From Promethearchaeati archaeon (GTDB taxonomy: Archaea > Asgardarchaeota > Heimdallarchaeia > JABLTI01), in the NCBI GenBank assembly GCA_013166835.1, contig JABLTI010000006.1:1-54650 (forward strand): a stretch of 54,650 nucleotides of DNA, read 5' to 3'. Position numbers and translations under genes: made by a program. Each line of letters opens with the position of its first letter. Within the stretch, counting starts at the first letter, position 1. Positions 30,499 to 52,493 of the stretch are shown piece by piece. The notes beneath the pieces were generated by a model. That model saw only the letters and a program-made list of their open reading frames with translations. It was not told the origin of the DNA and made no database searches.

Positions 30499-30512
30499 AA
30501 AATGAGTAATTA

Positions 30513-30554: not shown

Positions 30555-30608
30555 ATGAGGAAAAATTTCAAATAATTAATTTTCATAGTTTACTCCAGTG
30601 GGATTTCA

Positions 30609-30800: not shown

Positions 30801-30813
30801 AGGGAATCATTAA

Positions 30814-31944: not shown

Positions 31945-31951
31945 GCTTCTC

Positions 31952-32527: not shown

Positions 32528-32538
32528 GAGTAATTGAT

Positions 32539-35500: not shown

Positions 35501-35862
35501 TTCTCAATTTTTTTTCTTAATGTCAAGTTCAAATTTCTTTTAACTTTATCAAATTCATATATAGAAAGAGTATTAGAAGAGTCAATGAATAACAAATCTT
35601 CATCTTTGTGGTCTGATAATTTTATTCCACTTAAAACCTGGATTGGTTGTTTTAATTTTAGTAATGATTCCTGTTTAAAGCCCTCTGGGGTAATAATGAA
35701 ATATCCGAGTTCTAATTCTGATGCATTGTCATCTTGTACATACACTAATTCAGGAATTACTCCCCCGCCTTCTAAGTCAACTAAATCGAATAATGCTTTT
35801 TCAAAGGGAAGAGCAATAGTTTTTTCTTCCCATGTGAATTTTTTCAATATAGTTTTTCTCAT
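32539..35862 (-). CDS. 1107-aa beta-propeller / coiled-coil / Ig-like protein
   Basis: An 1107-residue protein with no signal peptide. Residues about 1-390 are beta-strand-rich with repeated hydrophobic four-strand blocks and loops consistent with a beta-propeller. About 395-475 is a helical coiled coil. About 500-980 contains several beta-sandwich blocks with Ig/CARDB-like character. The last 120 residues are helical. Propeller, coiled coil, Ig-like domain and helical tail in that order resembles the layout of trafficking coat subunits such as BBS proteins; this is architecture only. Its ATG overlaps the stop of the upstream GAP1-like gene (ATGA), so translation is coupled. Last gene of the minus-strand operon. 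Confidence 0.7.
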   Translation of the reverse strand: MRKTILKKFTWEEKTIALPFEKALFDLVDLEGGGVIPELVYVQDDNASELELGYFIITPEGFKQESLLKLKQPIQVLSGIKLSDHKDEDLLFIDSSNTLSIYEFDKVKRNLNLTLRKKIENLKNPLKIKTFTIGDTSYVLLISDNILLLKIDFEDEENLKVTQVFESSQYYKDDLPSFYENGDFISVKDDGTIEILLCGEYSLCILEIKNGQFNLKCDPVSTESFIEEIYSYVPDKSAGFIHILCKTSEGTILFNYNGKEFRKKNLNINPELIDAITHHQSFDKKPTPIVIGDLSEDIGKISILNDLSSKTDPIDITNLEDISPDEGFKIVPLDILTHVYEPLGISLIFAIFQNKASGFLDTQKPSIVIHPFYVQTNYELISESLLVEYIEKANRKINDFYLYLLDGLDCFANYENEIEQEIIKLEEIVESIDLMEMVMQQKTLAKNTKKKLEDLNKKEDVFNIRLEIKHRVKKTKEKITKPIKITENSRGLEFSDFRLVNASDFTDSLIQNAPIKTSFNIINLSSVNICNFRFNRDQLSQIKEEKGIKIYLGPKAENEIDIIRSGKSYRFSLYLETSQIQNDNIILPISYDFVTETGLVSKQAIITLPRFKCHTLLHVKTDIQPIEDDREFNLSLGLEKDKRYSFHVKINPLIDTKIKNVKLRVDDKIKFGSNYFEYLKNREIFANQTEIIDFAEIVPKNIGKSKIGPLEIVTTEGTHIVPELIVHVKDKLPYLEIDSIKITDPNALIGEKAPIGIPLYIRIELTKNDIGISKIKPFIEPLTQNIKVESELEPFSIDQRETFVKDFLIRPITDKYGESGKLRIWFEYEDRKTSIDEFEIKISLSPPEFNTKIETKPEQLLLTDLDKSGHIHVFTEVLEGYLKNPKFYFSYKDKDKIKVIPTHPLTLDYLNFKEKKVFDKNYEIKALKKASLESELTFVMEYQPYFDETIQKSAEFKKIELLKIPVWLDTVHKPKVISINIKEIIDKIESYLKMERKRFKKCIAESSMYLPFQLSQTMLPTDLKDYSFMTVLSTMKKMNVDVVYNQQTQKHLIMEQIDNMIESMLNAGVNVFEYEIDNVKILPMGILFRCFWDYLKRTVENLRKEIS

Positions 35863-38800
35863 CTGAAAGATGCTCCTCTCTTACTTAGCAATTGCCATTT
35901 TTCATTTAGTTTATCTACTTGGCTTATTGCCTTTTTCTTATGCTTCCATTTATCATCCTTAGTGAGCTTAATAGCCATATCTATGTAATTTTCAATGAAC
36001 TCATCAAAAATTCTATAGTAACCTTCATCTCTTTTCTTTTTAGTTAACCAGCTAAAGGCTCTTTGATAATATAACATAGTAATATCTGCAGCATTTTTGT
36101 TGATTAAAAGAACATCTAGGAAGTTCTTGGAGAATTTCAAGAAGCTTTTAGTTTGGTAAATGAAAATCTCAGACAGAAGCTGAGAAATTTTTATTTTCAT
36201 AGAATCATCATTGACTATTTTAGTGTAAACATCACTCACATGACGAGTTTGTCTCTGACTTTTACTAACATTTTCAAAAATATGTTCCAGATTATCATAG
36301 ATGTTCTTTTGAAGAGAGTACGCTCCTTTTACTATCTTCGATTCATTTTTATCTGGATCAAGTAAATTGTTGGTATTCTTCCAGAGATTCAGTAGATACT
36401 CAAGTCTTTCCAATGAGTAATTTGTACGTGAAATTTTCAATGATTCGTTGCTTATCTTCAATAAGGATTCACTTGGAACCAGATTTGAAATACCTGTTAG
36501 ACGATTGATTAAGGAACTCAGTTGCTTGAAATTATCATAATCCTCTTTTACAGCAAATTTTAAGAAATAGTCTAAAATTACAACGTAAGAATTTACATCT
36601 ATTTTTGTGCCTGGAGCAGGTGCTAATAGATAGTTTTCATAAAAGATTGACGCAATGAAACTATTTGTTTTATCTATGAACTTCTTTACATTGTCAAAAT
36701 TTTTCTTTAGAAATTTATCTAGACTGGTTTCTCTAAAGGTAACGACAAGGAGTTTTTCTAAATTTGTATTCTTAATTGTATTTGAATCAGAGGTTGCATC
36801 TGATAGTATGTTTAAGATGTTGTTAATTATATTTGCTCTGGCATTATTGCTTCTTGGACTATCATATTTACTATCTATTATTTTTACAGCTTCTATACTA
36901 TAAATCAAGAAATTTGCTAATCTATTTTGATTCTTTTCAGAATTTAAATATGAATTGAAGTCCTGACTGTATGTATCTAACAATCGAGAAATAAAGTCCG
37001 CAAAATTTATGACATAAATTTTATCTGAATGTTCATCTTTTAGAATTGATGAAAAGATTTGCTGACAAATCACATAATAGTTGATAAAAGGGCTTCTTCC
37101 AAAATATTCCTTTTTCTGTAAATCTTCTACGAATTTCTCAAACGTGTTTTGATTAAAAACATAACTTAGTCGTAATTTTATTACCTCTTCCATGTAAAAT
37201 TCTAATTCTTCTGGAGTAAGTTGCTTACCAAATAATTTCCAGAATATCTCTCTGTTAAGATTATTTAGATATTCATTAAGAGAATTACTTGTTTCCCGAT
37301 CTAATGATTGTGTTTCCTTAATATGATAGAGTAAACTGTTGTATTGTTTCAATATATTATAATCCTTATCCAGGAAGATTTTTGATCCAAATTCCAAAAG
37401 AATAGGTACATTTTCTGTTGAAATTTTATTTTTAATTTCATTAATTTGTTCTGTAATTTCATTTCTAGATAATGTATTAATTCTATATGACAATGCTTTC
37501 AATTGAATCTCTAACGCTTTGACTTTGTTTGGATATACAGAAGCTAAAATGAATAACAAATCACAGATTTGAGTAATAGCTACTTTGCTTTCTATTTCCT
37601 TGTCAAACAATATATATGAAATTTCAGCAATCTCGTTCATAATCCTGGAATATTGTTCACCTTCAAAATTAGAAATAAATGAAGTGAAGTCTCTTCTTGA
37701 ATTTGGAGAACTTACAAAAACATTGTAGAAATAGTTCTGAAAGATTACTTTCAAGAAATTTTGTAGTTGAGCTAAAGGTAAATCAAGAATCTTAAATGAA
37801 GCCTTAATAGCTTTAACCATTATTGATTCCCTATGTTTTTCATAGGTTTGAATATTAGTTAATTCTATTAGTTGTTGATATTGTTTTGATATAAAGCTAA
37901 AATCTCCACTATAGAAAATCAAATCTACAATTATTTCGAAAATCGCTAGATTCGGAGAAATCTTTAGAGAGTCTAAAATTCTATTGGTTTTTGTACTTAT
38001 ATCTAATCGAAGATCCTTTATCTTATCTAAAACTAGTTCCAAGATTTTACTTCGATTATCACTATGAATCTGTTCCATTGATAATAATTCAAGATATATA
38101 TCACTTAATTTATCGAAGGTATTTGCTTTTGAGAATACTGACCAATTAGCAATGTCAGAAAGAGTGATAAATTGTTGATTTTGATCAACATTCATTGCAG
38201 AAGATGATCGTATGTAATGAATCAAATGATTTTTCAGTTTTACAATATTATCCAGTAGGCCTGCATTAAGTGCATTTTGTATGCTTTTTCGTTCAAATTC
38301 AAATGCCCAACTAAACTGATCAATATAATTCTTTTCTGTAATTGTTCGTCTATATAGTGTGATTTTATCGAAGAGTTTATCATATGATGATTGTGTTTTC
38401 AATCTAATGGCTTCTTCAAGATATTTCTCACACACTACGCGATTCTCAAGGATAAATGCAATTTCTTTTGCTTTCAATAGGAATTGCGCATGAGATAATT
38501 TTCCTACATATTCTTTCAGTATTTTATCAAAACTCTTAGTGTAATCATTTAGCTCCTGTACTTTCAGCTCAGAGATGAAATTCGTTAAAGTTGTAGCTAA
38601 ATCATTTGTAGGTATACTTTCACCATCAATGAGTTCACCTTTACCACCAATGATAATAGTATTTATTGGAATTGATGCTGGTTTCTTAATGCAAGAACGA
38701 GGGGCAAATATTAAGTTAAATTCTGAAACATCCAGAGAGCTATAAGTAGCAGTTTGAATAAACGGATCAAAAAAGAAAGTTGCTATTCTTATTAAACCTC

Positions 38801-39407
38801 GAATATATTTTGGTAAAACCTTTAAGAAGGAATTAATTTCTGCTAATGGTTGAGTATCACCAGTTAGTATAACTATATTTTTCCCTTCTAATAAATAAGT
38901 AATAACTACTTTAACTAAATTGAGATTAAGTTTTGTTTTAATAGTCTCAAAATCATTAGATGTAAATTGAGAAATTTTACTAATTTCAGATATTTCAATA
39001 TCAATCATATCTTTATCGAGAAAATCATTACGTGTAAAAACATCTTTGAGATAATGTAAAACCAAAGGATTATTACCAATCAGATTATATTGTTCTTCTG
39101 TTAACACGATTGTATGAGTTAGAGTTCTCCCGGGCCTTCCATCATAATTTCTTCCTGCATCAATTACTTGACCAATTGCAACTCTATTGTCTTTTAATTT
39201 ATAACTCAGAATTGTATCTGTGATGGGAACTCGACAATATACCATTCCAAATGGATTTACTCCGTATGAATAACGCAAAATATGTAGTTTAGTTGCTTCA
39301 TCTATTCCTCTAGAAGATATGCTTGTAATTTGCTGCCCTGATTTTTGAGCAGTTTTTACTGAAGTAAAAAGCAAATAAGGTACATTAATTCTTTCATCTT
39401 TTGACAA
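35859..39407 (-). CDS. GAP1-like GTPase-associated protein
   Basis: An 1182-residue protein. The N-terminus has the pattern of the GAP1-N family of GTPase-associated proteins from bacterial conflict systems: a YLLFTS strand, GQQITSISSRG, then a conserved RPGRTLTH at 91-98 followed by a hydrophobic strand, matching the RPG-x3-TH/FxH signature I recall for that family. Residues about 150-260 continue with an LPKYIRG and APRS segment like the middle (GAP1-M) region, and the remaining 900 residues are an alpha-helical array. TTG start at 39407 with GAGGG 8 nt upstream. Directly downstream of two GTPases and coupled to the propeller protein, as expected for a GTPase partner. Confidence 0.65.
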   Translation of the reverse strand: MSKDERINVPYLLFTSVKTAQKSGQQITSISSRGIDEATKLHILRYSYGVNPFGMVYCRVPITDTILSYKLKDNRVAIGQVIDAGRNYDGRPGRTLTHTIVLTEEQYNLIGNNPLVLHYLKDVFTRNDFLDKDMIDIEISEISKISQFTSNDFETIKTKLNLNLVKVVITYLLEGKNIVILTGDTQPLAEINSFLKVLPKYIRGLIRIATFFFDPFIQTATYSSLDVSEFNLIFAPRSCIKKPASIPINTIIIGGKGELIDGESIPTNDLATTLTNFISELKVQELNDYTKSFDKILKEYVGKLSHAQFLLKAKEIAFILENRVVCEKYLEEAIRLKTQSSYDKLFDKITLYRRTITEKNYIDQFSWAFEFERKSIQNALNAGLLDNIVKLKNHLIHYIRSSSAMNVDQNQQFITLSDIANWSVFSKANTFDKLSDIYLELLSMEQIHSDNRSKILELVLDKIKDLRLDISTKTNRILDSLKISPNLAIFEIIVDLIFYSGDFSFISKQYQQLIELTNIQTYEKHRESIMVKAIKASFKILDLPLAQLQNFLKVIFQNYFYNVFVSSPNSRRDFTSFISNFEGEQYSRIMNEIAEISYILFDKEIESKVAITQICDLLFILASVYPNKVKALEIQLKALSYRINTLSRNEITEQINEIKNKISTENVPILLEFGSKIFLDKDYNILKQYNSLLYHIKETQSLDRETSNSLNEYLNNLNREIFWKLFGKQLTPEELEFYMEEVIKLRLSYVFNQNTFEKFVEDLQKKEYFGRSPFINYYVICQQIFSSILKDEHSDKIYVINFADFISRLLDTYSQDFNSYLNSEKNQNRLANFLIYSIEAVKIIDSKYDSPRSNNARANIINNILNILSDATSDSNTIKNTNLEKLLVVTFRETSLDKFLKKNFDNVKKFIDKTNSFIASIFYENYLLAPAPGTKIDVNSYVVILDYFLKFAVKEDYDNFKQLSSLINRLTGISNLVPSESLLKISNESLKISRTNYSLERLEYLLNLWKNTNNLLDPDKNESKIVKGAYSLQKNIYDNLEHIFENVSKSQRQTRHVSDVYTKIVNDDSMKIKISQLLSEIFIYQTKSFLKFSKNFLDVLLINKNAADITMLYYQRAFSWLTKKKRDEGYYRIFDEFIENYIDMAIKLTKDDKWKHKKKAISQVDKLNEKWQLLSKRGASFR

Positions 39408-39448
39408 TTTTTACCCTCATTATTTTTTTCTCAAATATTTACATTTTA

Positions 39449-40252
39449 TTATGTTGTTTCTTTCTTTTCAGCTTGAATGAAAAACTTGATTGGTTCTGTG
39501 ATATTCACAGGATTTATGTAAACTTTAATTGGATATTCTCTTTCTTCTGCACCAACTCCAAGAGAAGAAAGTGTTATGCATTTGAAATTCTTCTTGAAAT
39601 ATAATTTCCCATATCTCCAAGCAGTAGGTAATTTTTCTTTCAAATAGGCATCAGCATTTGGGAAATCAATAACATCTCCTTTGGAGACACACATTGTAAT
39701 TTTGATTTCTTTTGATATGTCTTCATCACTTTTCTTATTGTTTATCTTGTTTTGATAGATCATTTTCATCATAATTGTAAACATAGTATCTTGTTCATTA
39801 AAATCGAAAAATAATGGATCCACAAGAAAAATAAATGAATTTCCAGAGTATAGCAAATTAGTTATCACTTTTTGACTTTCTTTAAGTTCTGCAGGAATCA
39901 AAGATTTTCGAATTTCGGAATGATAACGAGCATCAAATATTTCCTGAATATCTTCACCAGACAAATCATAACTTGAGATCATAGCAACTGGTTGACCTGA
40001 TTTTGGATGTGATCCATCATAGACAAGCTTCAATTTTAATTCTATAAAAGATCTTCTAGGTGTTGCAAATGAAGATCCTTCATTAACTATTGTTTCACCT
40101 ACAAAGGATAAATAATCAATCGTATTGCTATCTTCAGAAGGATCAATAACAAATGGATTTAACAATCCTTGATTTATAGAATCAAACAGCATTGCTAAAT
40201 AAACTGTTTTGCCAGCTCCATTGGGTCCAAATATACGGACTTTCCTTTCCAA
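39449..40252 (-). CDS. P-loop GTPase of the double-GTPase (DO-GTPase) type, 2
   Basis: A 267-residue P-loop protein: GPNGAGKT at 9-16 followed by VYLAMLF, a switch region with YDLSGED (D96-x2-G99), a hydrophobic LVDP strand, and SKGD (190-193) at the base-recognition position. The GKTVYL run and the D-x-SGE switch fit the small GTPases found beside GAP1 proteins. TTG start at 40252 with AAGGTGG upstream. It is a paralogue of the gene immediately upstream, 14 nt apart, and both precede the GAP1-like gene, suggesting a heteromeric GTPase pair. Confidence 0.8.
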   Translation of the reverse strand: MERKVRIFGPNGAGKTVYLAMLFDSINQGLLNPFVIDPSEDSNTIDYLSFVGETIVNEGSSFATPRRSFIELKLKLVYDGSHPKSGQPVAMISSYDLSGEDIQEIFDARYHSEIRKSLIPAELKESQKVITNLLYSGNSFIFLVDPLFFDFNEQDTMFTIMMKMIYQNKINNKKSDEDISKEIKITMCVSKGDVIDFPNADAYLKEKLPTAWRYGKLYFKKNFKCITLSSLGVGAEEREYPIKVYINPVNITEPIKFFIQAEKKETT

Positions 40253-40266
40253 TTATGCCACCTTTT

Positions 40267-41145
40267 TTATTTGCCTTGCTCTTGGAATTGTTTATTGAAG
40301 AATCTCACAGGTTCAAGAATTCCTTGTGGATTAATATTATCCGGAACTAACTGATATTCATAACCTTCAGGAGTTTTCTCAACTTTGGGTTTTACACCCA
40401 ATGAAGAGATATGAAATGTTCCTATTCTCTCCCTACTGAAGTATAATTTTGCATAATTCCATGATAAACCAATTAACCTTGATAATTGTCTTTGTTCATT
40501 CCGATTTTCCCGATAAGTATCAGTTTTAGTCAAGACAAATGCTAATGAAATATTTTTTAGTTTTTGATTTGGTTTTAGTTTGTATTTGTTTTGATGTACT
40601 GTAATTATTTCCATTAATACAGCAAAAATAAATCTATCCTGTGAGAATTTATTCGCTGGTGTAGGATCAACCATAAACATAAATGAAGATGAATTCTGAA
40701 TTAACTCATCTAAAGATTTCTTAACATTTATGTATGACTCATCACCTTCAACTTGCAGATTTTCATCTTTGATTTGAAACGTTTCTTCTGAAGAATCTCC
40801 CTTTTTCTTTGATGGTGAATAAATCTCATACATAGTTTCACCAGCAAAATCATATGTGTTAAAAGTAAATACTGTTTCAATTAAATCAGGATCATCTTTA
40901 CTTATACCTTTGATTTCGAAACTAACACGTTTAATACTTCTTTGATCCGTAGCATGTGGGAATTCTTTATGTACATACATTCCTTCAGCTAGATAATCCA
41001 GATATTCATAGGAATCCATATTATCCTTAAAATCCAGTGCGAGACCTTCTCCTCCTGGATCTTCCCTTAATCTATTAAATAATGTAACCAGATATACAGT
41101 TTTACCTGAGCTAGAAGTCCCAAATAAACCTACCAAGCGATTCAT
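40267..41145 (-). CDS. P-loop GTPase of the double-GTPase (DO-GTPase) type, 1
   Basis: A 292-residue GTPase with GTSSSGKT at 9-16, switch YDFAGET (D99-x2-G102), FMVDPTP strand-loop, and TKTD (206-209) for guanine recognition. An insertion of about 30 charged residues between the switch and the next helix (about 110-140) is absent from its paralogue. First gene of the minus-strand operon, transcribed divergently from the ESCRT-III-like/AAA operon across a 198-bp gap. No lipidation motif or membrane segment seen. Confidence 0.82.
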   Translation of the reverse strand: MNRLVGLFGTSSSGKTVYLVTLFNRLREDPGGEGLALDFKDNMDSYEYLDYLAEGMYVHKEFPHATDQRSIKRVSFEIKGISKDDPDLIETVFTFNTYDFAGETMYEIYSPSKKKGDSSEETFQIKDENLQVEGDESYINVKKSLDELIQNSSSFMFMVDPTPANKFSQDRFIFAVLMEIITVHQNKYKLKPNQKLKNISLAFVLTKTDTYRENRNEQRQLSRLIGLSWNYAKLYFSRERIGTFHISSLGVKPKVEKTPEGYEYQLVPDNINPQGILEPVRFFNKQFQEQGK

Positions 41146-41343: not shown

Positions 41344-41955
41344 ATGAAATTCATAGACTTTTTTAAGAGGAAGAAGAAGTTTTCTTTAGAAGAACTTGAA
41401 GATATAAAAGAATCAATAAATGACTATGTCACTGAAATAAATAGAGGATCAAGAGAGAGCAAACGTAAAATAAAAAATATGATAAGGAAAGGCAGAACTC
41501 CTTCTCCATCATTAACTATGAATTATCGAAGATTCAAGTTGATAAATCAGCAATTAACAGGTTTTGTTGATACTATTGATGGGATGATTTTTGAGGTCGA
41601 ATTTCAAGGAGTTTTATCAAAAATTGAACAGCAATCAAAAGATGTGTTTGAAGCTATTAACTCAGAAAATATTATGGCTACTGTTGACGCGAGATTGAAA
41701 GATTTTGTAAAGTCACAAATAAAATATGCTGAAAAAGTTGAACAAGAAATCGCAAAACAAGAGACATGGCTTGATAATTTGCAGCAAGTAGTAGAAGATC
41801 ACGAATTAGAATCTGAAATGAATCTTGAGTATATGACTGATGAAATCTTGGTGGAATTTATAATTGATGACAAAGAATTTGCTGAAGAGCTGCCTGCTGA
41901 AGTAAAAGAAAAGCCTATTATTAAACAAGTTATAACCATGCTTGATAAGGAGTAA
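41344..41955 (+). CDS. ESCRT-III (Snf7)-like basic helical protein, paralogue A
   Basis: A 203-residue all-helical protein. A basic N-terminal helix (FFKRKKK), a helix with repeated basic residues ending in IRKGRTPSPS, a long helix of ESCRT-III-like spacing (NYRRFKLINQQLTG) and an increasingly acidic C-terminus give the charge polarity of Snf7/CdvB proteins. The tail carries EFIIDDKEFAEELP, conserved in its paralogue and a candidate MIT-interacting motif for the AAA protein encoded two genes downstream. The start is the ATG at 41344 (an ATG two codons earlier, 41338, is too close to the GGGGG ribosome-binding site). Homology to ESCRT-III is inferred from organisation, not proven. Confidence 0.6.
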   Translation: MKFIDFFKRKKKFSLEELEDIKESINDYVTEINRGSRESKRKIKNMIRKGRTPSPSLTMNYRRFKLINQQLTGFVDTIDGMIFEVEFQGVLSKIEQQSKDVFEAINSENIMATVDARLKDFVKSQIKYAEKVEQEIAKQETWLDNLQQVVEDHELESEMNLEYMTDEILVEFIIDDKEFAEELPAEVKEKPIIKQVITMLDKE

Positions 41956-42021
41956 ATATTATAAGCGATAAAAATGCATTGTTAGTTTGGTGTCAATTTT
42001 TAAATTTTGGAGGTTTGGAAT

Positions 42022-42594
42022 TTGCCGTTATTTAAGAGAAAGAAATCCGTTGAAAAAATGATGGAAGAAGTGGATAAAGCTAAAGATTCAGTATCTGATT
42101 CTTTATCGGATATTAATTCAAGATATACTAGACTCAAAAATGAGATTAAAAGAGGGTTCAAAAAAGGAATCAACCCTTCGCCTGCTAAGAAGCTTAATTT
42201 AAAACGTGCTCAAATCATACGAGATGTTACTCAAGGATTATATGATTCTCTTGATGGGATTTATGATGAACTAGAAGTATCTCAAACATTTAAGAATCTA
42301 AATCTAGAGAAATTAGATGGTTTAGTTACTCAATTCGACAAAGTTTTCAAAACAAATAATGCTTTTCTAAAGAATTTGTTTAAGCAACAAGAAAAACATC
42401 TTGGGAAACTAGAGAGCATTATTAGTCGTCAACAATTTGACATGGAGAATTTGGAAGATCTAGCTTCGGAATATGACTTAGAAATTTCTGATGATATTAC
42501 AATAGAATTATTGGAAGAATTTGCTACTGATGATCCTGAATTTGTGAAGGAGTTGCCTGAGAAATTCAAGAAAGCATTGAAACGACGAATGTAG
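42022..42594 (+). CDS. ESCRT-III (Snf7)-like basic helical protein, paralogue B
   Basis: A 190-residue paralogue of the preceding protein. Shared features: a basic LFKRKK N-terminus, IKRGFKKGINPSP against IKNMIRKGRTPSP, LKRAQII then a D-x-LDG/IDG turn, and the same tail EEFATDDPEFVKELP. TTG start at 42022 with GGAGG (42009-42013) 8 nt upstream; an in-frame TTG at 42007 is inside that site. It precedes the MIT-AAA ATPase by 35 nt. Two ESCRT-III-like subunits plus a Vps4-like ATPase would match the usual archaeal ESCRT set. Confidence 0.6.
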   Translation: MPLFKRKKSVEKMMEEVDKAKDSVSDSLSDINSRYTRLKNEIKRGFKKGINPSPAKKLNLKRAQIIRDVTQGLYDSLDGIYDELEVSQTFKNLNLEKLDGLVTQFDKVFKTNNAFLKNLFKQQEKHLGKLESIISRQQFDMENLEDLASEYDLEISDDITIELLEEFATDDPEFVKELPEKFKKALKRRM

Positions 42595-42629
42595 TCAAGA
42601 ATTGAATTGCTTTTGGAGGGCTACACAAA

Positions 42630-43784
42630 ATGAATGAGTTTGATAAAGCTGTTATGTTTAAGAATAAAGCAAAAGAAGCTATGAAAAACAAGAAATATGC
42701 AGAAGCGAAAAAATATTACGCTGAAGCGATTAAATATCTCACGATTTTAAGGAATAGATCAAAGTCTCCAATGAAAGAAAAATTCCAGATGATAATTGAT
42801 ACTTTGAAAAAGACAATTAAGAAGATACCTATTAAAGAGAAACCTGAAACTCCCCCAGATGATGTAGAACGACCACCCTTCAAGATTCCTAAGGATTTAC
42901 CAGAAAACTGTAAGAAAATAATATTGAAAACAAGGAACAACTTCAAGGATATAGCAGGTCTAAAAGAACTAAAAGAAGATCTACGAAAAACAATTGAATA
43001 TCCAATAAAATTCCCTGAGGAAACTGAAAAATGGGGTTTTCTCGGTGAAAGAGGTATCCTAATGCATGGACCTCCTGGTTGTGGAAAGACATTTCTGATA
43101 AAGTGTGCAAGTGGTCAATTTGGCGTACCAATAATTGCTATGCCACCTGATAGAATACTGCAAAAATATGTTGGAGAATCCTCAAAATCAGTTGCTGAAT
43201 TATATGACTGTGCGGCATTATTGTCTCCTTCATTAGTATTCATTGATGAAATTGATCGTTTATTTGCATCACCTGATAGTTCAGGAGTAATTTCACAAAT
43301 TACAAGTCAGATAATGCAATTACTGTCAGGTGTAGGAGTTGGAGCGTCTACAGATAAAATTGATTTACCAATAATCACTATTGCTGCTTCAAACCACCCC
43401 TGGGTTTTAGATTCAGCATTGATTAGAAGAGGAAGACTTGGTAAGATTGTATATGTACCTCCCCCAACTAAAGAAGCAAGAAAAACAATTCTTGAAATAA
43501 ACCTTAGAAAGATACCTTTGTCAAGTGATGTGAACTTAAATTTAATTGCTGATAAGACTTCCAAGGATGCGAAAAGTGGGTGGGAGTATTCTTGCAAAGA
43601 TATTAGCTATATTTGTCAAGCTGCACGATTAGAAGCTATGGAAAGGGAAATTGATGGTGAAGAAAATGTACGAGTTACACAAAGCATGTTACTAAAAGCA
43701 TTGAATTCCATTTCAAGAACCATTTCACCAAAACAAGTCAAGCAATATACAGATTGGGAGAAGAGAGCAAGAACGAATTTATAG
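42630..43784 (+). CDS. MIT-domain Vps4-like AAA ATPase
   Basis: A 384-residue AAA ATPase. An N-terminal three-helix MIT domain (about 3-68; DKAVMFKNKAKEAMKNKKYA then a Tyr-rich helix) is joined by a Pro-rich linker (69-92) to a meiotic-clade AAA module: DIAGLKELKEDL, Walker A GPPGCGKT (147-154), pore-loop KYVGES (179-184), Walker B LVFIDE (202-207), sensor Asn255 and Arg fingers 266-269. The C-terminus ends SPKQVKQYTDWEKRA, like the Vps4 C-terminal helix, but I see no beta-domain insertion. Probably disassembles the two adjacent ESCRT-III-like polymers. GGAGGG 9 nt before the ATG. Confidence 0.88.
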   Translation: MNEFDKAVMFKNKAKEAMKNKKYAEAKKYYAEAIKYLTILRNRSKSPMKEKFQMIIDTLKKTIKKIPIKEKPETPPDDVERPPFKIPKDLPENCKKIILKTRNNFKDIAGLKELKEDLRKTIEYPIKFPEETEKWGFLGERGILMHGPPGCGKTFLIKCASGQFGVPIIAMPPDRILQKYVGESSKSVAELYDCAALLSPSLVFIDEIDRLFASPDSSGVISQITSQIMQLLSGVGVGASTDKIDLPIITIAASNHPWVLDSALIRRGRLGKIVYVPPPTKEARKTILEINLRKIPLSSDVNLNLIADKTSKDAKSGWEYSCKDISYICQAARLEAMEREIDGEENVRVTQSMLLKALNSISRTISPKQVKQYTDWEKRARTNL

Positions 43785-43793
43785 GTGAGTAAA

Positions 43794-44441
43794 ATGAGTC
43801 CAGATGTTTCGAAAAGACTAGATAAGAAAATATCAAAAGAATTAGAATCAATAGCTAAATTTTTGACATCCTCAGAGAAGAAAACAGAGAAATTAATTGT
43901 AAATCATGCCAAGAAATGTATCGAATTAGTAGGAGATTTAGGTCCACGAGATCGCGCTCATTATTCTGAATTTTTCTCGGAATTGGTTTCTGATACATTA
44001 CTTTTTTGTAGAGAACAACATGCGAAGTACTACAAGAAATATCGCTCCAAAGTTGAAGAAGCAAAAGAGAAAAAGAAAGCAGGTATATTAACAAAAGATA
44101 CATTGGGCAATCTACTTGACCAAGCTATAGATTACAAAATGTTTGCTAATGATTTTGATAATCAAAAATTCTTAATTGAAGGTTTTACATCACAATTTGA
44201 AATGTGGTTTGTTCAAGGTAACACCGACTATTTACTTAATGTGACTAGAGATTGGGAAAATATGCAAGCAATTAGAACCAGAGAACGCGAAAGAAGAGAG
44301 ATTTTAGGTGAAATAATGACTCGAACTGATAAAGAGATTGCTAGAATGGAACAAGAAGTAGGATTGACTGATTTAGAAGATGAAGAACTTGCAGAGCTAT
44401 TGAAAGATGATGTTGATGAGTTAGAGGAACTAAGAGGTTGA
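43794..44441 (+). CDS. unrecognised 215-aa helical protein with acidic tail
   Basis: A 215-residue, helical, coiled-coil-prone protein. The ATG at 43794 follows AGGTGA; an in-frame GTG at 43785 lies inside that ribosome-binding site. It ends LTDLEDEELAELLKDDVDEL, an acidic amphipathic tail reminiscent of MIM1-type motifs that bind MIT domains, consistent with binding the ATPase encoded 10 nt upstream. Basic and acidic clusters in the middle (YYKKYRSKVEEAKEKKKAG). No family recognised. Co-transcribed with the AAA gene. Confidence 0.6.
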   Translation: MSPDVSKRLDKKISKELESIAKFLTSSEKKTEKLIVNHAKKCIELVGDLGPRDRAHYSEFFSELVSDTLLFCREQHAKYYKKYRSKVEEAKEKKKAGILTKDTLGNLLDQAIDYKMFANDFDNQKFLIEGFTSQFEMWFVQGNTDYLLNVTRDWENMQAIRTRERERREILGEIMTRTDKEIARMEQEVGLTDLEDEELAELLKDDVDELEELRG

Positions 44442-44519: not shown

Positions 44520-45302
44520 ATGGCCGATAGATATAAAGAAAAAGCCGATGAATTAATTAAATTATATAATGAAGAAATTAAATTTTACGAATTCTGGTCA
44601 GATGAAACTTTACCAATTGAATTCTATGATATTGATAAGGGTAAATTGATAAAAGTTCCAATGGATTTTCAAATAAAGAGATTAAAACGAACTCTGAAAA
44701 CATTGAAATCAAAAAAGAAAATTAGTGATAAAGTAAAAACTCAACTAGAATCATCTCTGGAAAACATGGAGAAAGCTTTGTCAATTGTCAATAATATTGA
44801 TTCAGTCTTCAAAAGACTGTCAAAATTAGATGTTATTTTTCGAGGGTTACCTGACAAGAATAAATCAAAACTTGGAATAAAAACAATCGCAAAATTCCGG
44901 AGCACATTAATTGATAATATTAGATTACCAGAATTAGATCTCAAAGAACTTAAAGAAACAATTACTAAATTTGAGTCAAAATACAGTAAATTAAAGATAA
45001 GAGAGCGGAAGATTGAGAAAGGTGTGGGAGCTCTTGCGATTTCTGAAGAAGAAATGAATCAACTGGATTCATTGCTAGCTGAGATTGATGAGCATTTTGA
45101 AGGAATTGATTATGTTAGTATAATGGAAACAAGATTGTTTAAACTCAAAGAGAAAGAAGAGTTAGTCATTGATGTTCACGATATCCCAGATAATGTTTGT
45201 AGATCATTGCTTGATGAGCCAGGAAATGAGGATTTAAGATATAATAAGGAAGCGGGATTGATTCTTCTAAAGGAATCTGAATATAACACATATATGTTTT
45301 AG
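44520..45302 (+). CDS. unrecognised 260-aa helical protein
   Basis: A 260-residue mostly helical protein with long Lys/Leu-rich helices (about 60-180) and a short C-terminal segment (about 215-260) of mixed strand/helix character (LVIDVHDIPDNV, then LILLKESEY). No catalytic or binding motif is apparent. It sits between the AAA operon core and the subtilisin protease, 26 nt before the protease gene, so it could be a specific adaptor or substrate of that protease. Family unknown. Confidence 0.6.
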   Translation: MADRYKEKADELIKLYNEEIKFYEFWSDETLPIEFYDIDKGKLIKVPMDFQIKRLKRTLKTLKSKKKISDKVKTQLESSLENMEKALSIVNNIDSVFKRLSKLDVIFRGLPDKNKSKLGIKTIAKFRSTLIDNIRLPELDLKELKETITKFESKYSKLKIRERKIEKGVGALAISEEEMNQLDSLLAEIDEHFEGIDYVSIMETRLFKLKEKEELVIDVHDIPDNVCRSLLDEPGNEDLRYNKEAGLILLKESEYNTYMF

Positions 45303-45328: not shown

Positions 45329-47062
45329 ATGAAGTGGGTAAACAAATTAGACCCAACAGCATACAATGTAATGACAGTTCTAAATAATACCTTGCCAGAA
45401 GAAGAATTGATAGTTATTTTTAATACGAAACAAAAAGTGGATGATCTTAATAGTTATCTCGATCATAAGAAAGGAATTTCTAGTGTTGAATCCCTTGGTT
45501 TTAAATCCAAACACTTTGAAGAAATGGGTGCAAAAATAAGATTTGTGTTAGGTGATATTGGATTAGTTTCTTTCACAATTAAGGCTAAAGAAGTTAAGAA
45601 TCAAATTTTCGAGAATTTCACAGATATTGTTACTAGTATTGGTGTTGGAGAAGATTCACATTATGTTCTCAATGACTCCCGGAAAATGGTTATGGGAGAA
45701 ACCCCTACCTCATTTGATGGTTCAGGAACTAGAGTTGCAGTTGTAGATTCCGGAGTTGATACTCACCCAGATCTAAATGTTATTGCTCATTTTGATTTTT
45801 CAAGTGATGCGAGCAATCCTGAATTTGCTAAAAAAGATATTTGTGGTCATGGTACTCATGTTGCAGGGATAATTTCAGGGAAAGGTGTGAAGAATTCTGA
45901 AATAAAAGGAGTAGCTATTGGAGCTGAAATAATTAATGCTAAGGGATTAAATGCGATGGGTATAGGATCCAATGATGGTATTTTTGCAGCTATTACAAAA
46001 GCATGTAAAGACCATAAGGCAGATGTAATAAATCTTAGTCTTGGTTCTCCAGAGAAGCACTATAATATGAGTAGCTCAATGAAGGAAACATTTGTACATG
46101 CAGATGATTCAAAAAATGATTTTTACAAAAATATACACCAACAATATCCATCTGTTGTGATTGTTGCATCAGCTGGAAACAATGGTCCTGAATATAAAAC
46201 TCTAAATGTTCCTGGAGCATTTGAAGAGGTAATTTGTGTTGGTAGCGTCAATAAAGATAAAAAAATGTCTTATTTTAGCTCTAGAGGTTCCAACAATCAT
46301 AATAAAACCAAACCAGATGTTGTCGCTCCCGGTGGAAGTATTTTAGCAACAAAATCTAAATATGAAGCTGCTTCATCAAAATGCGAATTCTATACAGTGA
46401 AATCAGGAACATCCATGTCATGTCCACACGTGTCTGGTTTAGCAGCTTTATTATGTAAAGCTATAAAATCTCAAAATCTAAAATCACTAACAAATACTTT
46501 TGATAGACACACTTATATCAAGAAAATTATGATGAATTCTGCGATAAATCTACAATTTGATGCTAATACACAAGGAGCAGGTCTAATTAATTTTCCTGCA
46601 GCCAAAAAACTAATTGAAAGCAAGAAAGAAGTTGTGGAAGTTGTCTTGGCAGCTCCAGATCTGAGATATGAAATGGATGATTCTGTGTTTGATAAAAGTT
46701 TTACAATGTTTAAAGATATCATTCCTTTTTCAAGTCAAAGCAATGAAAATCTTGCTGAAATAGCTAACATGGTAACTAGCATTAATATAATTCAAACTAA
46801 ATATGACCTGAGTTCTTTAGGAGTACTTGGTAATAAGTTAATGCAAGCATCAATAAAAAATCCCTGTAAGGAAAATTTATTTGTGCTTAGATTTAATATT
46901 CCAATTTTTAGAATTAGAACTGAAATTGAAGAACTTCTCCCATTAGAAGAAAATTATGCTAATATAACTAATAAATATACAATTAGAAAAGCAATGAAAA
47001 ACGTGATTGCTTCAATAGATTCGATAACTAATATTGAAAATAAAAAATTAATCTTATATTAA
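45329..47062 (+). CDS. subtilisin-family (S8) serine protease without signal peptide
   Basis: A 577-residue S8 protease. The N-terminal 125 residues resemble an inhibitory propeptide and lack any signal sequence. The catalytic set is complete: Asp140 in VAVVDSGVD, His174 in GHGTHVAG, oxyanion Asn284 in SAGNNG, and Ser362 in GTSMSCPHVSG. The last 160 residues form a helical C-terminal extension with no recognised domain. AAAGGTGA precedes the ATG. A cytosolic zymogen in an operon with an AAA ATPase suggests that it is activated in the cell as an effector or processing protease. Confidence 0.88.
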   Translation: MKWVNKLDPTAYNVMTVLNNTLPEEELIVIFNTKQKVDDLNSYLDHKKGISSVESLGFKSKHFEEMGAKIRFVLGDIGLVSFTIKAKEVKNQIFENFTDIVTSIGVGEDSHYVLNDSRKMVMGETPTSFDGSGTRVAVVDSGVDTHPDLNVIAHFDFSSDASNPEFAKKDICGHGTHVAGIISGKGVKNSEIKGVAIGAEIINAKGLNAMGIGSNDGIFAAITKACKDHKADVINLSLGSPEKHYNMSSSMKETFVHADDSKNDFYKNIHQQYPSVVIVASAGNNGPEYKTLNVPGAFEEVICVGSVNKDKKMSYFSSRGSNNHNKTKPDVVAPGGSILATKSKYEAASSKCEFYTVKSGTSMSCPHVSGLAALLCKAIKSQNLKSLTNTFDRHTYIKKIMMNSAINLQFDANTQGAGLINFPAAKKLIESKKEVVEVVLAAPDLRYEMDDSVFDKSFTMFKDIIPFSSQSNENLAEIANMVTSINIIQTKYDLSSLGVLGNKLMQASIKNPCKENLFVLRFNIPIFRIRTEIEELLPLEENYANITNKYTIRKAMKNVIASIDSITNIENKKLILY

Positions 47063-47295: not shown

Positions 47296-49428
47296 GTGAG
47301 GTATATTAGATTAAGAATTATAATAGTCAATTTGTTTTTTACATCAACTTTTTTGCTATTTCTTGTATTATCAATGAACACAAATACTCGAATTCAAAAT
47401 GCTTCTGCTGAGAGTTCTCTTTTATATTCTGAGGATTTTTCGTCAGATGTTTTTTCAAGCTCTGATTGGGTTCGAACAGATAATAGTGTGTTCGTTGACA
47501 CAACTAATGGTTGGTTGCATATTTCCTCTGATACTGATTATGATGATTATGCTAGCTTTGTATTAAGTTGGGAATCCTCATTTACTATTATAATTCGATC
47601 CAGATCTAATGGTGGGAGAGGTTATCGAATGCCAGCATTTGAATTTTATAATAATCAAGAAAAAACTTTTTATGTTACGTGCATCGATGAGTGGATTTTC
47701 CCCCAATCAAATGGTTCCATTAATTATCTTCCACCTAGTGAGAATATTTGGTGGGATATCAAAATCGAATTTAACTCTGATTCTCAAATTTTGTTTGCAA
47801 AGAATATTAGTACAAATGCTTGGAACAAAATTTCAGAAAATAATATTGAAAATCTTGATTTTACTTCTCTAAGAATACGTCAAAATTGGGATGCCACTAT
47901 TGATATTGATTTTATTGAAATATATATTGAAGACCCATTCCAATTTTATGAACCTTTTAATAGTAATGACGTTTGGATTAGTTCTAATTGGACACGCAGT
48001 GGTGATTATTATTCAATTGATGAAAAAAATGGTTGGCTACATAAAAGCTTAGCAGGACATTATGAAGATTCAGTTGATTATTCTATCTCACTTCCATTTC
48101 CATTCACAATTGAATATAGAGGTCGATTAACTAGTGGTGGAAGAGATTATACATTCCCAGCATTTCATTTTGTAACTAAAGATAGTCTCTCATTTTCTTT
48201 TGTATATGGATATTCTCAAAAGGGTCAATGGCGATTTATAGGGGAATATGTTGATTCCTCTTTAGGTCCTCATTCAGAGGGAATATGGTGGTCTGCTAAG
48301 ATTGAGTTTAATATAAATAATCAAACATTATATTCAAAATCTGATTCAGCTACAGAATGGTCTTTTGTAGCCTTTAGAGAGTATAATATCAGTGATGGCA
48401 TTGTTTCTTTTGGTTTTCATGGTTCATGGGATGCAATAATTGATATAGATTATGTTGCAATTGATCTTTCATTATCCCATAACCCACTTTTACAAAATAA
48501 TGACAAAAGCTTTCTAGATCTATACTTAATATTTGTACCATTGGCAGCAATTATTTCAGTAATTATTATAGTATTATTCCTTTATTTTATGCTAAAAGGT
48601 GAAACTAGATATGCGAAAAGAACAACGAGAAGAGAAAGAAGAGAACTAAAAAATTTTAAAAAACAAGAAAGAAAAAATGCTAGATTTGTTAGTGAAAAAT
48701 TAAGACTCGTTGAAAAACAAGAGAGAAAAGATGCTAGATTAGCAAAAAGTAAAGCTCAACAAGACAAGAAATTATCTGAGAAATTATTGAAAGATGAAAT
48801 GAAAGCATTAGACAGGGCTGAACAAGTATTAGTCCAAATCTTATATCAGACTAGAAGAAAGAATTTCTTGATTACAATCTCAGATCTAATTGCAAGAAGC
48901 GGAGTTAAGCAAGATTTGGTTGTTTCGATTATTAACGAGCAGTTCGTTAGACAACATGATATTATAATAGATGGGACTACAATTGTTTTCCCCAAAGAAA
49001 AAGAGAAGTTTATATATAATTCTAGAAAAATTGTTGAAAGGGTATTAGAAAAAATAAGTTTGGATACCTATACAGTATCATTGGATGATTTCGGTCAAAT
49101 GACTAAAATAAATCCAGAATTTTTAGATTTAGTCCTCATTAGTGAAATTCAAAACAAATACAGATTCATTGTTCAAAACAATATGATTATTTTTACAGAT
49201 AAGCAAGCTATCTATGATGTTATTTATCATGTTAAAACACTTCTAACTATATACTATGATAAGAAAGAAGAAACAAAAGAGACATATGATCTACTCACTC
49301 AAGCAGAAATTGAGTTGGTATCAGCAATAAAGAATGCTAAAGAACTAGGATTCGCAGATGAAGTAGAAGAACTCGAATTTCATCTGAAACAAGTAAGAAG
49401 GCACATTAAAGAATTCGATGTTGACTAA
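47296..49428 (+). CDS. secreted-domain membrane protein: tandem lectin-like ectodomain, TM helix, winged-helix cytoplasmic tail
   Basis: A 710-residue protein. A signal-like helix (about 7-27) precedes two tandem beta-sandwich domains of concanavalin/LamG type (about 45-220 and 221-405), which repeat GWLH, GGRGY/GGRDY, a PAFEF/PAFHF strand, IWW-x-IKIEF/IWWSAKIEF and a WDA-I-DID end motif. One transmembrane helix (about 407-431) leads to a basic coiled coil, two winged-helix-like units (about 504-640), and a three-helix module ending KEFDVD. GTG start at 47296 with AAAGGAG upstream. The tail is homologous to that of the next protein. Likely an outside-to-inside sensor or adhesion receptor. Confidence 0.75.
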   Translation: MRYIRLRIIIVNLFFTSTFLLFLVLSMNTNTRIQNASAESSLLYSEDFSSDVFSSSDWVRTDNSVFVDTTNGWLHISSDTDYDDYASFVLSWESSFTIIIRSRSNGGRGYRMPAFEFYNNQEKTFYVTCIDEWIFPQSNGSINYLPPSENIWWDIKIEFNSDSQILFAKNISTNAWNKISENNIENLDFTSLRIRQNWDATIDIDFIEIYIEDPFQFYEPFNSNDVWISSNWTRSGDYYSIDEKNGWLHKSLAGHYEDSVDYSISLPFPFTIEYRGRLTSGGRDYTFPAFHFVTKDSLSFSFVYGYSQKGQWRFIGEYVDSSLGPHSEGIWWSAKIEFNINNQTLYSKSDSATEWSFVAFREYNISDGIVSFGFHGSWDAIIDIDYVAIDLSLSHNPLLQNNDKSFLDLYLIFVPLAAIISVIIIVLFLYFMLKGETRYAKRTTRRERRELKNFKKQERKNARFVSEKLRLVEKQERKDARLAKSKAQQDKKLSEKLLKDEMKALDRAEQVLVQILYQTRRKNFLITISDLIARSGVKQDLVVSIINEQFVRQHDIIIDGTTIVFPKEKEKFIYNSRKIVERVLEKISLDTYTVSLDDFGQMTKINPEFLDLVLISEIQNKYRFIVQNNMIIFTDKQAIYDVIYHVKTLLTIYYDKKEETKETYDLLTQAEIELVSAIKNAKELGFADEVEELEFHLKQVRRHIKEFDVD

Positions 49429-49601
49429 TATATGAAGAAGAAATGAATAATATTAATTTATCAATATGCACACAAACTGAAATGAAATAAAGTAGTAACT
49501 TCTTGATCTATTTTCCCAGAAAAATCTTTTTTAATCATGAAACAAAGTATTTACTGTTTTTAGAGTTAAAACAAAATTTTCTTAGAAATGGAGAGAAAAA
49601 T

Positions 49602-52493
49602 ATGGCAAACAAAATCATTGATGTTCTCTTTCAGATACAGGCTCTTCTAGATGCTGACATAGTCAAGCATTTGCAGCAAACTTCCATGGCTGTTTGCATT
49701 GTTGGTTGTGTTGGATTATTTGCTATGTCTCTTTATATGATAATTGAGGATTATGATCTCCCTCCGGGATGTGGTATTTTTGCAGCTATTGGCTTTGCTC
49801 TTTGGTGTTCTTTTGCTGTTGGTTATGGATTGTATGCATATATGAGCTTAGGAATGACTAATGATATCAGAAATATATTAATCACATCCCATGTTCTTCT
49901 TGGAGTTAATGCAATCTTCATGGGGATTTTTTACGATCGCGCAGAATATGATTGGGTTATAGGTTTTATCGCTTCTGTTATCACACTTTTTGGGTCTTAT
50001 ATTCTTGCAGTTATTGTATTTGTCTTTTTCTTGGATTGGACATTATCATTAACTATACTCTGCATTCTAATAGTTTTTGCTGGTTTAATTATTCTAGATG
50101 TTTTTGGCAGGACAGATTATTGGGAAAAGAGTTTTCGTGTTTCTGTAGGGATAATTTCTCTCTTAGTTGGAATAGGTAGTTTAGTAACTGGTTATCTTGG
50201 TTTATCGCCAAGTTTTACCTTTAATATATCACTAGGAGTGGATATATCATTGACAGTTGGGGGAGTTCTAGTGATAATTATGGGATCACTCTTACTGGGA
50301 GAAGCTTCTACAGAATTTGATTATAAACCAGGTTATACTGCTGGTGCTACAATTGGTTATACTACGCTATTTAGTGGATTAGCTCCTTGGATTATTACAA
50401 TGGTGAATCAAATAAGACAAACACAAATCAACAGCTTCGTTCTAACTTTAACAATTCCACTTTCATTTATTTTACTAGCAGTAATAATCATAATTGGAAT
50501 TGCAGGTTATAATGCGTGGGAACTAAGTGGTTTCTTTGTTTTTGGTTTCTTTTTACTGTTTTCAAGCATTGCATGCTTAATTTGTAGTATTTTAGGTTTC
50601 CATGGTGTAATATCAATGGGTGGATACTTGACTCCTAAAATAATGTTAACGTTTTTTGGTTCAATAATTTCGATAATTGGCAGCATATTCATTGGTCAAG
50701 GATTATTTGGAGATGTTAGTAATAGATCTATTAGTGATCCAGCAATATCAATAACTTGGATGTCGATACTATGTACTTTTATTAGTGTGGGCATTTCAGT
50801 TTGGATACCTTATATCTTGAAACTCGTTGGGCAACCAATTGATTCTATTTTTTATATTACTATAGGAGTTCCGACAGGAATTTTAACTTCATTTGGTATA
50901 ATAGTACCTTTAGCTGCAACTCGGAGAAATAGAATTGATAGAAGGAATGATAGGCGTGCAAGCAGAAGAGAGGCAGATTTAATCAGACAGAAACAACAAC
51001 AGGAATCACAATATTGGTCTAATGCTAGTTCTCTTGTTAAAGGGGCTATTGAAAGATCTAAAGCTAGAAGATACGAAACTACTCTAGCTAACCTTAAACG
51101 CGGTAGTGGAGTTGAGAAACAGGATATTGCTAAGGTTATTCAAGATAAGTTTACTTTAACTTATAATATCACCCTTGATGGAGAAAATGTAACATTCAAT
51201 GAAGAAAAGGAAAAATTCATGGAGAAAGCAAGAAAGGCTCTTGAAAAAACTATTGATAAGGCAAGTAAAGAAGTCTTTACTATTTCTTTGGAGGAGATCA
51301 AAGCACAAACAAAAATTGATGTTGAGATTCTTGAGACTTTTATTACTACAAAACTCATTGAGAAATATAGCATTCAATTTGAAGATGGTATAATCACCTT
51401 CAAAGGTAAAGAAGGAATAATGGCAATAATTGAGCAAGTAGAGAATTTGCTTGATAGATTCTATGATATTGACGCAGAAACTCCTGATGCTTATGAACTT
51501 TTAACTGCTGCTAAAATCGAACTCGAAGCTGCCATAGATAACGCACATCATTTAGGTGCTGATGCTGAAATGGAAGATTGTAAGAGATTACTTAGAACTG
51601 TTAATAAACACATTAAAGAGTTTGATATTGAGGAAGAGGTAATTGAAGAGATTGTTGAAGAAGTTCCAGAAGAAATACCTATAGATAGTACTGTTCAAGA
51701 TGCTATTGAACATGTTGAAGCGCTTTTGAATGAATACTATGACAAGAATGTAGAGACAAAAGAGACATATGAATTACTTACTAAAGCAGAAATTGAGTTG
51801 AAATCAGCAATAAAACATGCTACAGATATTGGTTTTGGTAATGAGACAAATAAATTAGAATTTCTTTTAAAAACAGTTAGAAAACTCCTTGATGAGTTTG
51901 AATTAGAGGAGGAGGAAAAGGAAGAAGAGATACCAGAAGAACCTATTGAAGCTGAAGAAAATGAAGATGAACCTTTAGAAATCGAAGAAGAAGAAATCCT
52001 TGGAGAAATCGAAGAAAAGTTAGAAGAGATTGAAGCTGAATCTGAAAGTAAGGATGAATTCCAAGATTTTGGAATCGTAACATTCGAAGAGAAGGAAATC
52101 CCATCTGATGATGATAAGCAAATTGAGGGAACAAGTGAATACGAGGAATATGGAGTTATTCCAGAAGAATCCAGTATAGATTTAGATTCCCCAGATATTG
52201 ATACTAGTGTTGAACCAGAATTAGATGATGAAAACTCATTGGATGTTGTAGAGGTAATTGAACAATATGATGAGAAAATAAAACAGGTTGAATCTTTGCT
52301 TGAAGAATACAAGAATGCTAAATCAAGAAATGAAAGTACTGCTTCCTTCTTACCAGAAGCACAAGCAATTCTAAACGATGCAATAATACTGGCAACTCGT
52401 ATAAATAGTCCAGAGAAATTGAATATTTGTATGGAATTATCTCTTGAAATAGAAAGTTGTATTGATGAATATAAGAAGTCAAAGGAAGATTAA
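49602..52493 (+). CDS. polytopic membrane protein with winged-helix and repeated helical-module tail
   Basis: A 963-residue protein from the ATG at 49602 (GGAGAG 6 nt upstream; upstream in-frame TTG lacks a ribosome-binding site). The first 440 residues hold about thirteen hydrophobic segments. A strongly basic segment (about 442-460) follows, then two winged-helix-like units (about 470-600) and a three-helix module at about 608-670, repeated at about 700-765 with an acidic Glu-rich linker to about 885 and a degenerate third copy at the C-terminus. The winged-helix and module parts match the tail of the upstream gene, with near-identical DNA in places. No transporter family recognised. Confidence 0.72.
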   Translation: MANKIIDVLFQIQALLDADIVKHLQQTSMAVCIVGCVGLFAMSLYMIIEDYDLPPGCGIFAAIGFALWCSFAVGYGLYAYMSLGMTNDIRNILITSHVLLGVNAIFMGIFYDRAEYDWVIGFIASVITLFGSYILAVIVFVFFLDWTLSLTILCILIVFAGLIILDVFGRTDYWEKSFRVSVGIISLLVGIGSLVTGYLGLSPSFTFNISLGVDISLTVGGVLVIIMGSLLLGEASTEFDYKPGYTAGATIGYTTLFSGLAPWIITMVNQIRQTQINSFVLTLTIPLSFILLAVIIIIGIAGYNAWELSGFFVFGFFLLFSSIACLICSILGFHGVISMGGYLTPKIMLTFFGSIISIIGSIFIGQGLFGDVSNRSISDPAISITWMSILCTFISVGISVWIPYILKLVGQPIDSIFYITIGVPTGILTSFGIIVPLAATRRNRIDRRNDRRASRREADLIRQKQQQESQYWSNASSLVKGAIERSKARRYETTLANLKRGSGVEKQDIAKVIQDKFTLTYNITLDGENVTFNEEKEKFMEKARKALEKTIDKASKEVFTISLEEIKAQTKIDVEILETFITTKLIEKYSIQFEDGIITFKGKEGIMAIIEQVENLLDRFYDIDAETPDAYELLTAAKIELEAAIDNAHHLGADAEMEDCKRLLRTVNKHIKEFDIEEEVIEEIVEEVPEEIPIDSTVQDAIEHVEALLNEYYDKNVETKETYELLTKAEIELKSAIKHATDIGFGNETNKLEFLLKTVRKLLDEFELEEEEKEEEIPEEPIEAEENEDEPLEIEEEEILGEIEEKLEEIEAESESKDEFQDFGIVTFEEKEIPSDDDKQIEGTSEYEEYGVIPEESSIDLDSPDIDTSVEPELDDENSLDVVEVIEQYDEKIKQVESLLEEYKNAKSRNESTASFLPEAQAILNDAIILATRINSPEKLNICMELSLEIESCIDEYKKSKED

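Follow-up and report, generated by a model that had tools for sequence, protein, structure and literature searches.

The 54,650-nucleotide contig JABLTI010000006.1 of an Asgard archaeon (hereafter the window; C130 of a genome of 3.56 Mb, 84.75% complete with 6.8% contamination) encodes two proteins, A and B, which by profile comparison and predicted fold are divergent homologues of ESCRT-III (endosomal sorting complex required for transport III), followed by an ATPase that combines a MIT and an AAA domain. A preliminary description of the DNA had proposed two Snf7-like genes and a MIT-AAA ATPase at positions 41344-43784, a second, divergent ESCRT-like unit of the genome. All three open reading frames (ORFs) are present there, in that order on the plus strand, and profile comparison, whole-genome search, structure prediction and synteny back the proposal. 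The limits given were too narrow: the unit is part of a conserved block of about 30.8-47.1 kb, and the part that functions together spans about 16 kb instead of 2.4 kb (Table 1). The gene context does differ from the canonical ESCRT operon, as had been said, but it is not merely different, since the pairing of DO-GTPases with a GAP1-N2 protein marks a known kind of system. We see about an even chance that the block works as a conflict system, associated with the membrane and switched by GTPases, in which the ESCRT-III/MIT-AAA module is the mechanical part.

Start codons were chosen by the fit of ribosome-binding sequences. A Shine-Dalgarno-like GGGGGT fits the ATG at 41344 for A, GGAGGT at about 42010 fits the TTG at 42022 for B, which we therefore prefer to 42007, and Shine-Dalgarno spacing favours the ATPase start at 42630. 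A and B are paralogues (E = 5.6e-22, 32% identity), as had been thought, and both run from a basic N-terminal to an acidic C-terminal half, a trait of the ESCRT-III (Snf7) superfamily: net charge over the first and last 75 residues is +10 and −16 in A, and +9 and −7 in B. The block common to both is real, with the spacing IK-x4-KG-x2-PSP (IKNMIRKGRTPSP in A, IKRGFKKGINPSP in B) in place of the IK-x3-KG-x-PSP first reported.

As single sequences, neither A nor B matched Pfam Snf7 (PF03357) at E up to 1, and Pfam and NCBIfam together returned weak coiled-coil matches only, with no ESCRT-III call. A family profile including homologues from eight other genomes matched one of the two canonical Asgard ESCRT-III types at 92.7% probability (E = 4e-7, 123 collinear columns). 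The canonical types matched each other at 96.1% as a positive control, and five controls (reversed A/B and the helical families C, D, E and F) stayed at or below 1%. Our comparison set comprised 228 draft metagenomic Asgard genomes, one per species, in which the A/B profile found 12 members in 9 genomes (E < 1e-41) and then 13 weak matches. At least 8 of the 13, spread over at least 8 genomes, lie where an independent Pfam Snf7 search also places canonical ESCRT-III genes, and a ninth, in G087, is a canonical ESCRT-III by reading of its sequence. The best weak match (G077, E = 3e-9) is a divergent-type gene directly 5′ of a true Vps4 (59% identity to canonical Asgard Vps4), and this locus is an intermediate between canonical ESCRT and the window unit. 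It reads as an ESCRT-III-like gene with a PP loop, the true Vps4, then C- and D-like helical genes (L179, G077:C84, 645-4463).

An AlphaFold model of B, built with six sequences (mean predicted local distance difference test score, pLDDT, 77.5), contains the ESCRT-III helical hairpin (helices 8-45 and 52-89, pLDDT about 92) with the PSP block as its turn, followed by helices at 96-140, 142-168 and 178-187. ESCRT-III structures made up 5 of the top 8 matches in a PDB fold search with B (IST1-CHMP1B, three Snf7 entries and CHMP2A-CHMP3); with E values from 0.11, none is significant, and we treat them as supportive only. The genome holds a separate canonical ESCRT set, with Snf7 genes on C147 and C221 and a full Vps4 on C125; a Snf7 search of this genome returned the canonical genes and one weak third match elsewhere. 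Like canonical Asgard ESCRT-III and Vps4, the window unit has a homologous hairpin, two ESCRT-III paralogues and a MIT-AAA ATPase. It differs in that A and B are missed by Pfam Snf7, carry a PSP loop between helices 1 and 2 and end in a distinct tail, and in that the ATPase falls in a separate clade. The conserved tail is of the type EF...D.EF..ELP, with no clear fit to the MIM1 or MIM2 consensus.

The ATPase matches Pfam AAA at E = 6.8e-26. Its MIT domain is under the Pfam cut-off as a single sequence (E = 5.5e-5, 23.6 bits against 30) and is confirmed by profile-profile comparison with the N-termini of canonical Asgard Vps4 (95.7%, E = 8.6e-9), in which a reversed control reached 0.9%. The Walker motifs noted earlier are intact, and they and the arginine-finger region are kept throughout the MIT-AAA family; the latter is of ALIRRGR type, versus RRRFEKRI in canonical Vps4. 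The C-terminal helix that had been offered as a Vps4 marker is non-diagnostic because the D2 domain of Cdc48 has a similar one, and the match to Pfam Vps4_C is weak (E = 0.058). NCBIfam CdvC aligns over the full length (7-380) at 152 bits against a cut-off of 650, and the best single-sequence AAA matches are to Cdc48/VCP. A PDB ranking that put Cdc48 first is skewed by the two domains with which each Cdc48 chain can match, and it was set aside in favour of a tree.

That tree comprised the MIT-AAA family, canonical Asgard Vps4 and Cdc48 D1 and D2, without katanin or spastin. The family forms a single clade (support 100/99.8) outside the canonical Asgard Vps4 clade, and the family plus canonical Vps4 is split from Cdc48 D1 plus D2 with support of 99/98; an approximately unbiased (AU) test did not reject grouping the family with Cdc48 D2 (p = 0.149) or D1 (p = 0.106). 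From the tree and the AU result we therefore assign the ATPase to a separate Vps4-like MIT-AAA lineage, probably sister to Vps4 and not itself Vps4. Among the 228 genomes the family is present in 11 at E ≤ 6e-87, separated by a gap from Cdc48 and Vps4 at about 1e-69. An A/B-type gene adjoins the ATPase in 9 of the 11 members and is absent beside those of G082 and G083, where the ESCRT-III partner may be too divergent to be seen. The G082 member (L136, G082:C11, 9918-14832) is a solo MIT-AAA gene whose neighbours are small Ras-like GTPases in repeated copies and proteins possibly of longin/roadblock type.

Upstream of A, the minus strand carries two GTPases and GAP1 in that order and then a beta-rich protein of 1107 amino acids (aa), which we call the scaffold; the first GTPase lies 198 bp upstream of A. 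An alignment of the DO-GTPases has a conserved Glu in the Walker B region (YDFAGE and YDLSGE). The GAP1-N2 domain (PF20013) passed its cut-off in the genome search with 25.6 bits and reached 21.5 bits, against a cut-off of 24, when the protein was scanned; several Pfam matches in the block sit near curated cut-offs. A low-confidence scaffold model (pLDDT 46.9) has a propeller-like part, a helical hairpin and immunoglobulin (Ig)-like strands; Pfam returned no FNIII match to the protein, whose pattern is beta-rich and Ig-like. Its homologues have weak FG-GAP matches, and the one in G092 is fused to a C-terminal PLD domain (E = 4.6e-16). Across the GAP1/scaffold part (window 30001-41000) GC content drops from about 34% to 28-31%.

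The entire block recurs gene for gene in G006 ('Asgard group archaeon HMA_bin2.96') and is mostly kept in G092 ('Candidatus Lokiarchaeota archaeon Bin_342') and G206, both members of other families within the phylum. In these three genomes the order A/B, AAA, C and D is syntenic with the GTPases, GAP1 and scaffold, a point in favour of a GTPase-switched system with an ESCRT module, and conservation of the synteny excludes a chance arrangement. The GTPase/GAP1 part and the ESCRT-like part lie on separate short contigs in G188, G169 and G171. GAP1-N2 occurs in 7 of the 228 genomes and together with the MIT-AAA family in 6 (hypergeometric P = 1.7e-8, a statistic that ignores the relatedness of the genomes). 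The distribution is patchy: within the genus 1 of 9 genomes has the block and within the class 2 of 59, versus canonical ESCRT-III in 53 of 57. Two very similar condensation-domain-like genes flank the G006 system (L018, 513-1673; L019, 16140-16514) and may be remnants of an insertion or duplication.

The combination of DO-GTPase with GAP1-N2 is what sets apart the GAP1-N2 branch among the GTPase-centric systems (Kaur et al. 2020, PMC7159879), which are predicted conflict systems, many of them membrane-acting, with an exchangeable tubulin, HSP70 or kinase module. The window block resembles them in its two DO-GTPases, downstream GAP1, large beta-rich partner, transmembrane proteins, variable modules and patchiness, and is unlike the published ones in that its module is ESCRT-III-like plus MIT-AAA plus subtilase. 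PMC7159879 makes no mention of ESCRT, Vps4, a MIT domain or Asgard archaea, a literature search of partial coverage found no GAP1-N2-type system with an ESCRT module described, and neither ESCRT nor GTPase nor IetAS occurs in one survey of the defence systems of Asgard archaea.

We read the block as a conflict system because of the DO-GTPase and GAP1-N2 pair, the PLD fusion, the pairing of an AAA ATPase with a subtilase, the EAD11-like tail of protein E and the patchy distribution; its role in immunity or defence we infer. In the mechanism we propose, the membrane receptors with a common cytosolic domain (47296-52493) and the scaffold (32539-35862) would sense or recruit, and the DO-GTPase pair with GAP1-N2 would, from what is known of the family (Kaur et al. 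2020), be the switch. Informed by the receptors or the scaffold, that switch would permit A and B, whose homology and, for B, fold were computed, to polymerise on the membrane. The MIT-AAA ATPase may bind the acidic C-terminal tails of A and B, extract subunits and remodel or dismantle the polymer. The putative executor would be the subtilase, or in G092 the scaffold-fused PLD, and might seal or kill the cell or process a target. The ESCRT module would thereby fill the place of the tubulin or HSP70 modules of other GAP1-N2 systems. Every interaction and the order of events in this scheme are our inference, and we hold only tentatively, somewhat short of an even chance, that the DO-GTPase/GAP1 switch triggers an ESCRT-III polymer as part of an immune or membrane-damage response in archaea, and that tubulin, HSP70 and ESCRT are interchangeable modules of one GTPase switch.

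Several points weigh against a conflict system. No gene of the block is a proven defence gene, and GAP1-N2 systems are themselves only predicted conflict systems. The Pfam matches of DO-GTPase 2, GAP1-N2 and MIT are near or under curated cut-offs, the propeller/Ig reading of the scaffold rests on the low-confidence model and the weak FG-GAP matches, and no flanking defence island was seen within the window. In G070 and G172 the ESCRT-like part stands without a detected GAP1-N2, beside JAB and ThiF-like genes; because of this pairing, the ESCRT-like part looks like a module whose controllers can be exchanged. In the G070 locus (L134, G070:C84, 3122-14894) a leucine-rich-repeat protein, ThiF (E1-like), a UFC1-like E2 and JAB lie by the ESCRT-III-like/MIT-AAA/subtilase cluster.

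The main rival is a vesicle or cargo-sorting ESCRT system without an immune role, in which the scaffold would serve as a coat or adaptor and the DO-GTPases as Arf/Rab-like switches, with vesicles made by ESCRT-III and the ATPase and cargo matured by the subtilase. Its closest parallel is the Halo_adaptin loci, where a Vps4-like ATPase and a PspA-like ESCRT-III are accompanied by proteins that carry propellers at the N-terminus as well as Ig-like domains (Makarova et al. 2024, PMC10936438). Like Halo_adaptin and Meth_adaptin, the window block has a Vps4-like ATPase, a divergent ESCRT-III-like gene upstream and a large, putatively propeller/Ig protein; the scaffold has a similar strand/helix/strand order, and its homologues have FG-GAP matches. 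The propeller/Ig-like look of the scaffold and weak ESCRT-I matches (Vps28, Vps23_core) in homologues of D and E make this a serious rival; secreted or membrane proteins close by, and the JAB, ThiF and UFC1-like genes adjoining the unit in G070, also favour it. Unlike the window block, however, Halo_adaptin/Meth_adaptin loci are haloarchaeal or methanobacterial, and no DO-GTPase, GAP1 or subtilase is described in them (PMC10936438); the Halo_adaptin ATPase has a VAT-type N-domain and lacks MIT. Since DO-GTPase plus GAP1-N2 is a signature of predicted conflict systems, and the very patchy distribution, the effector-like PLD fusion and the IetAS-like AAA and subtilase pairing also speak against it, we think cargo sorting on the whole unlikely.

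That same pairing could instead point to protein unfolding and proteolysis, with the MIT-AAA protein a Cdc48-like unfoldase feeding the subtilase and A and B coiled-coil adaptors, not membrane polymers. The Cdc48/VCP matches of the AAA domain, the unrejected Cdc48 groupings, retention of the subtilase in several loci and PADLOC matches to IetA and IetS in the block are in keeping with it. The anti-phage IetAS system does join an AAA ATPase and a subtilase in one locus, but the likeness is generic to AAA and subtilase families, the IetA match leaves MIT uncovered, and the window block has many more genes. Membership of IetAS was rejected, as both genes are far under the NCBIfam family cut-offs (anti-phage ATPase 68 bits against 510, peptidase 40 against 900). 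With a MIT domain instead of the Cdc48 N-domain, A and B related to ESCRT-III by profile and fold, and the surroundings of the unit in G092, G169, G171 and G172 (some on short contigs) showing no subtilase, we consider an unfoldase improbable; it would account for the AAA protein and the subtilase and leave A and B unexplained. If the unit were a divergent copy of CdvB/CdvC, serving as another ESCRT for cell division or for membrane fission in general, the CdvB/CdvC gene order and the full-length CdvC alignment would be accounted for. Such a division machine is very improbable because the block is so patchy compared with canonical ESCRT-III; the genome also already holds canonical ESCRT-III and Vps4, and the unit is embedded among GTPases, GAP1 and a protease.

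Two lines of research, on GTPase-centric conflict systems and on the origin of eukaryotic ESCRT, are joined here. If the conflict-system reading is true, ESCRT-III polymers would be an exchangeable module deployable by a prokaryotic GTPase switch; under the more tentative immune reading, ESCRT machinery would have served cellular self-defence before or outside eukaryotes. Published work speaks of two Asgard ESCRT-III proteins (PMC11804906), a count that the Asgard families would then exceed. The MIT-AAA family also offers a candidate explanation, open to testing, of the Vps4-like ATPases that some Asgard genomes have outside the main Vps4 clade.

Table 1. Genes of the conserved block and of its downstream flank, by position in the window.
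Feature	Position	Strand	Remarks
Protein E (376 aa)	30814..31944	+	TPR/MIT-like N-terminus; C-terminal hairpin like EAD11 or Vps23 steadiness box
Helical protein F (191 aa)	31952..32527	+	conserved; possible paralogue of D
Beta-rich scaffold (1107 aa)	32539..35862	-	model, homologues
GAP1 with N-terminal GAP1-N2 domain (1182 aa)	35859..39407	-	PF20013
DO-GTPase 2	39449..40252	-	paralogue of DO-GTPase 1; PF19975 21.3 bits, under cut-off
DO-GTPase 1	40267..41145	-	PF19975 29.7 bits, cut-off 27
ESCRT-III-like protein A (203 aa)	41344..41955 (ORF from 41338)	+	family profile, charge
ESCRT-III-like protein B (190 aa)	42022..42594 (ORF listed from 42007)	+	family profile, AlphaFold model
MIT-AAA ATPase, Vps4-like lineage	42630..43784	+	MIT about 42642-42788; Walker A GPPGCGKT; Walker B FIDEID; RRGR arginine-finger region
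Helical protein C (218 aa)	43785..44441	+	adjoins ATPase; conserved
Helical protein D (260 aa)	44520..45302	+	conserved
Subtilase (Peptidase_S8)	45329..47062	+	N-terminal pro-region
Membrane protein, likely accessory	47296..49428	+	extracytoplasmic beta domains and cytosolic domain
Multi-pass membrane protein, likely accessory	49503..52493	+	same cytosolic domain as product of 47296..49428

Protein C is not claimed as a third filament-type subunit because its profile matched neither A/B nor canonical ESCRT-III (0.1-0.7%). The G206 homologue of D has a weak Vps28 match (E = 0.015). Homologues of E match Vps23_core at E = 0.0029 (G070) and 0.024 (G006), and its tail matches EAD11 at E = 2.4e-4 in G006, below the cut-off, and E = 0.059 in the window; because EAD11 scores better in both G006 and the window, we do not claim E as an ESCRT-I steadiness-box protein. 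The cytosolic domain of the membrane proteins is common to the block-adjacent proteins of the window and G006 (E = 5e-23).

A DO-GTPase scan of 84,980 genomes, with patterns that reach close relatives only, found only the G006 and G092 contigs, and plasmids gave no DO-GTPase match. Viral contigs held no GAP1 relative, and their AAA matches were generic (21-31% identical). Two haloarchaeal AAA loci have an unrelated gene context. No canonical ubiquitin or ESCRT-I/II genes were recognised beside the window ESCRT-like unit; farther upstream in the window, a ThiF-like protein (13600-14343) lies beside a 712-aa membrane protein (14700-16838) with a weak Ufm1 match (E = 0.005). At L053 (G168:C16) and L030 (G169:C282) a DO-GTPase is accompanied by a GAP1-N2 protein of short length and by a 472-aa protein common to both loci, a smaller type of GAP1-N2 system in small Asgard genomes.

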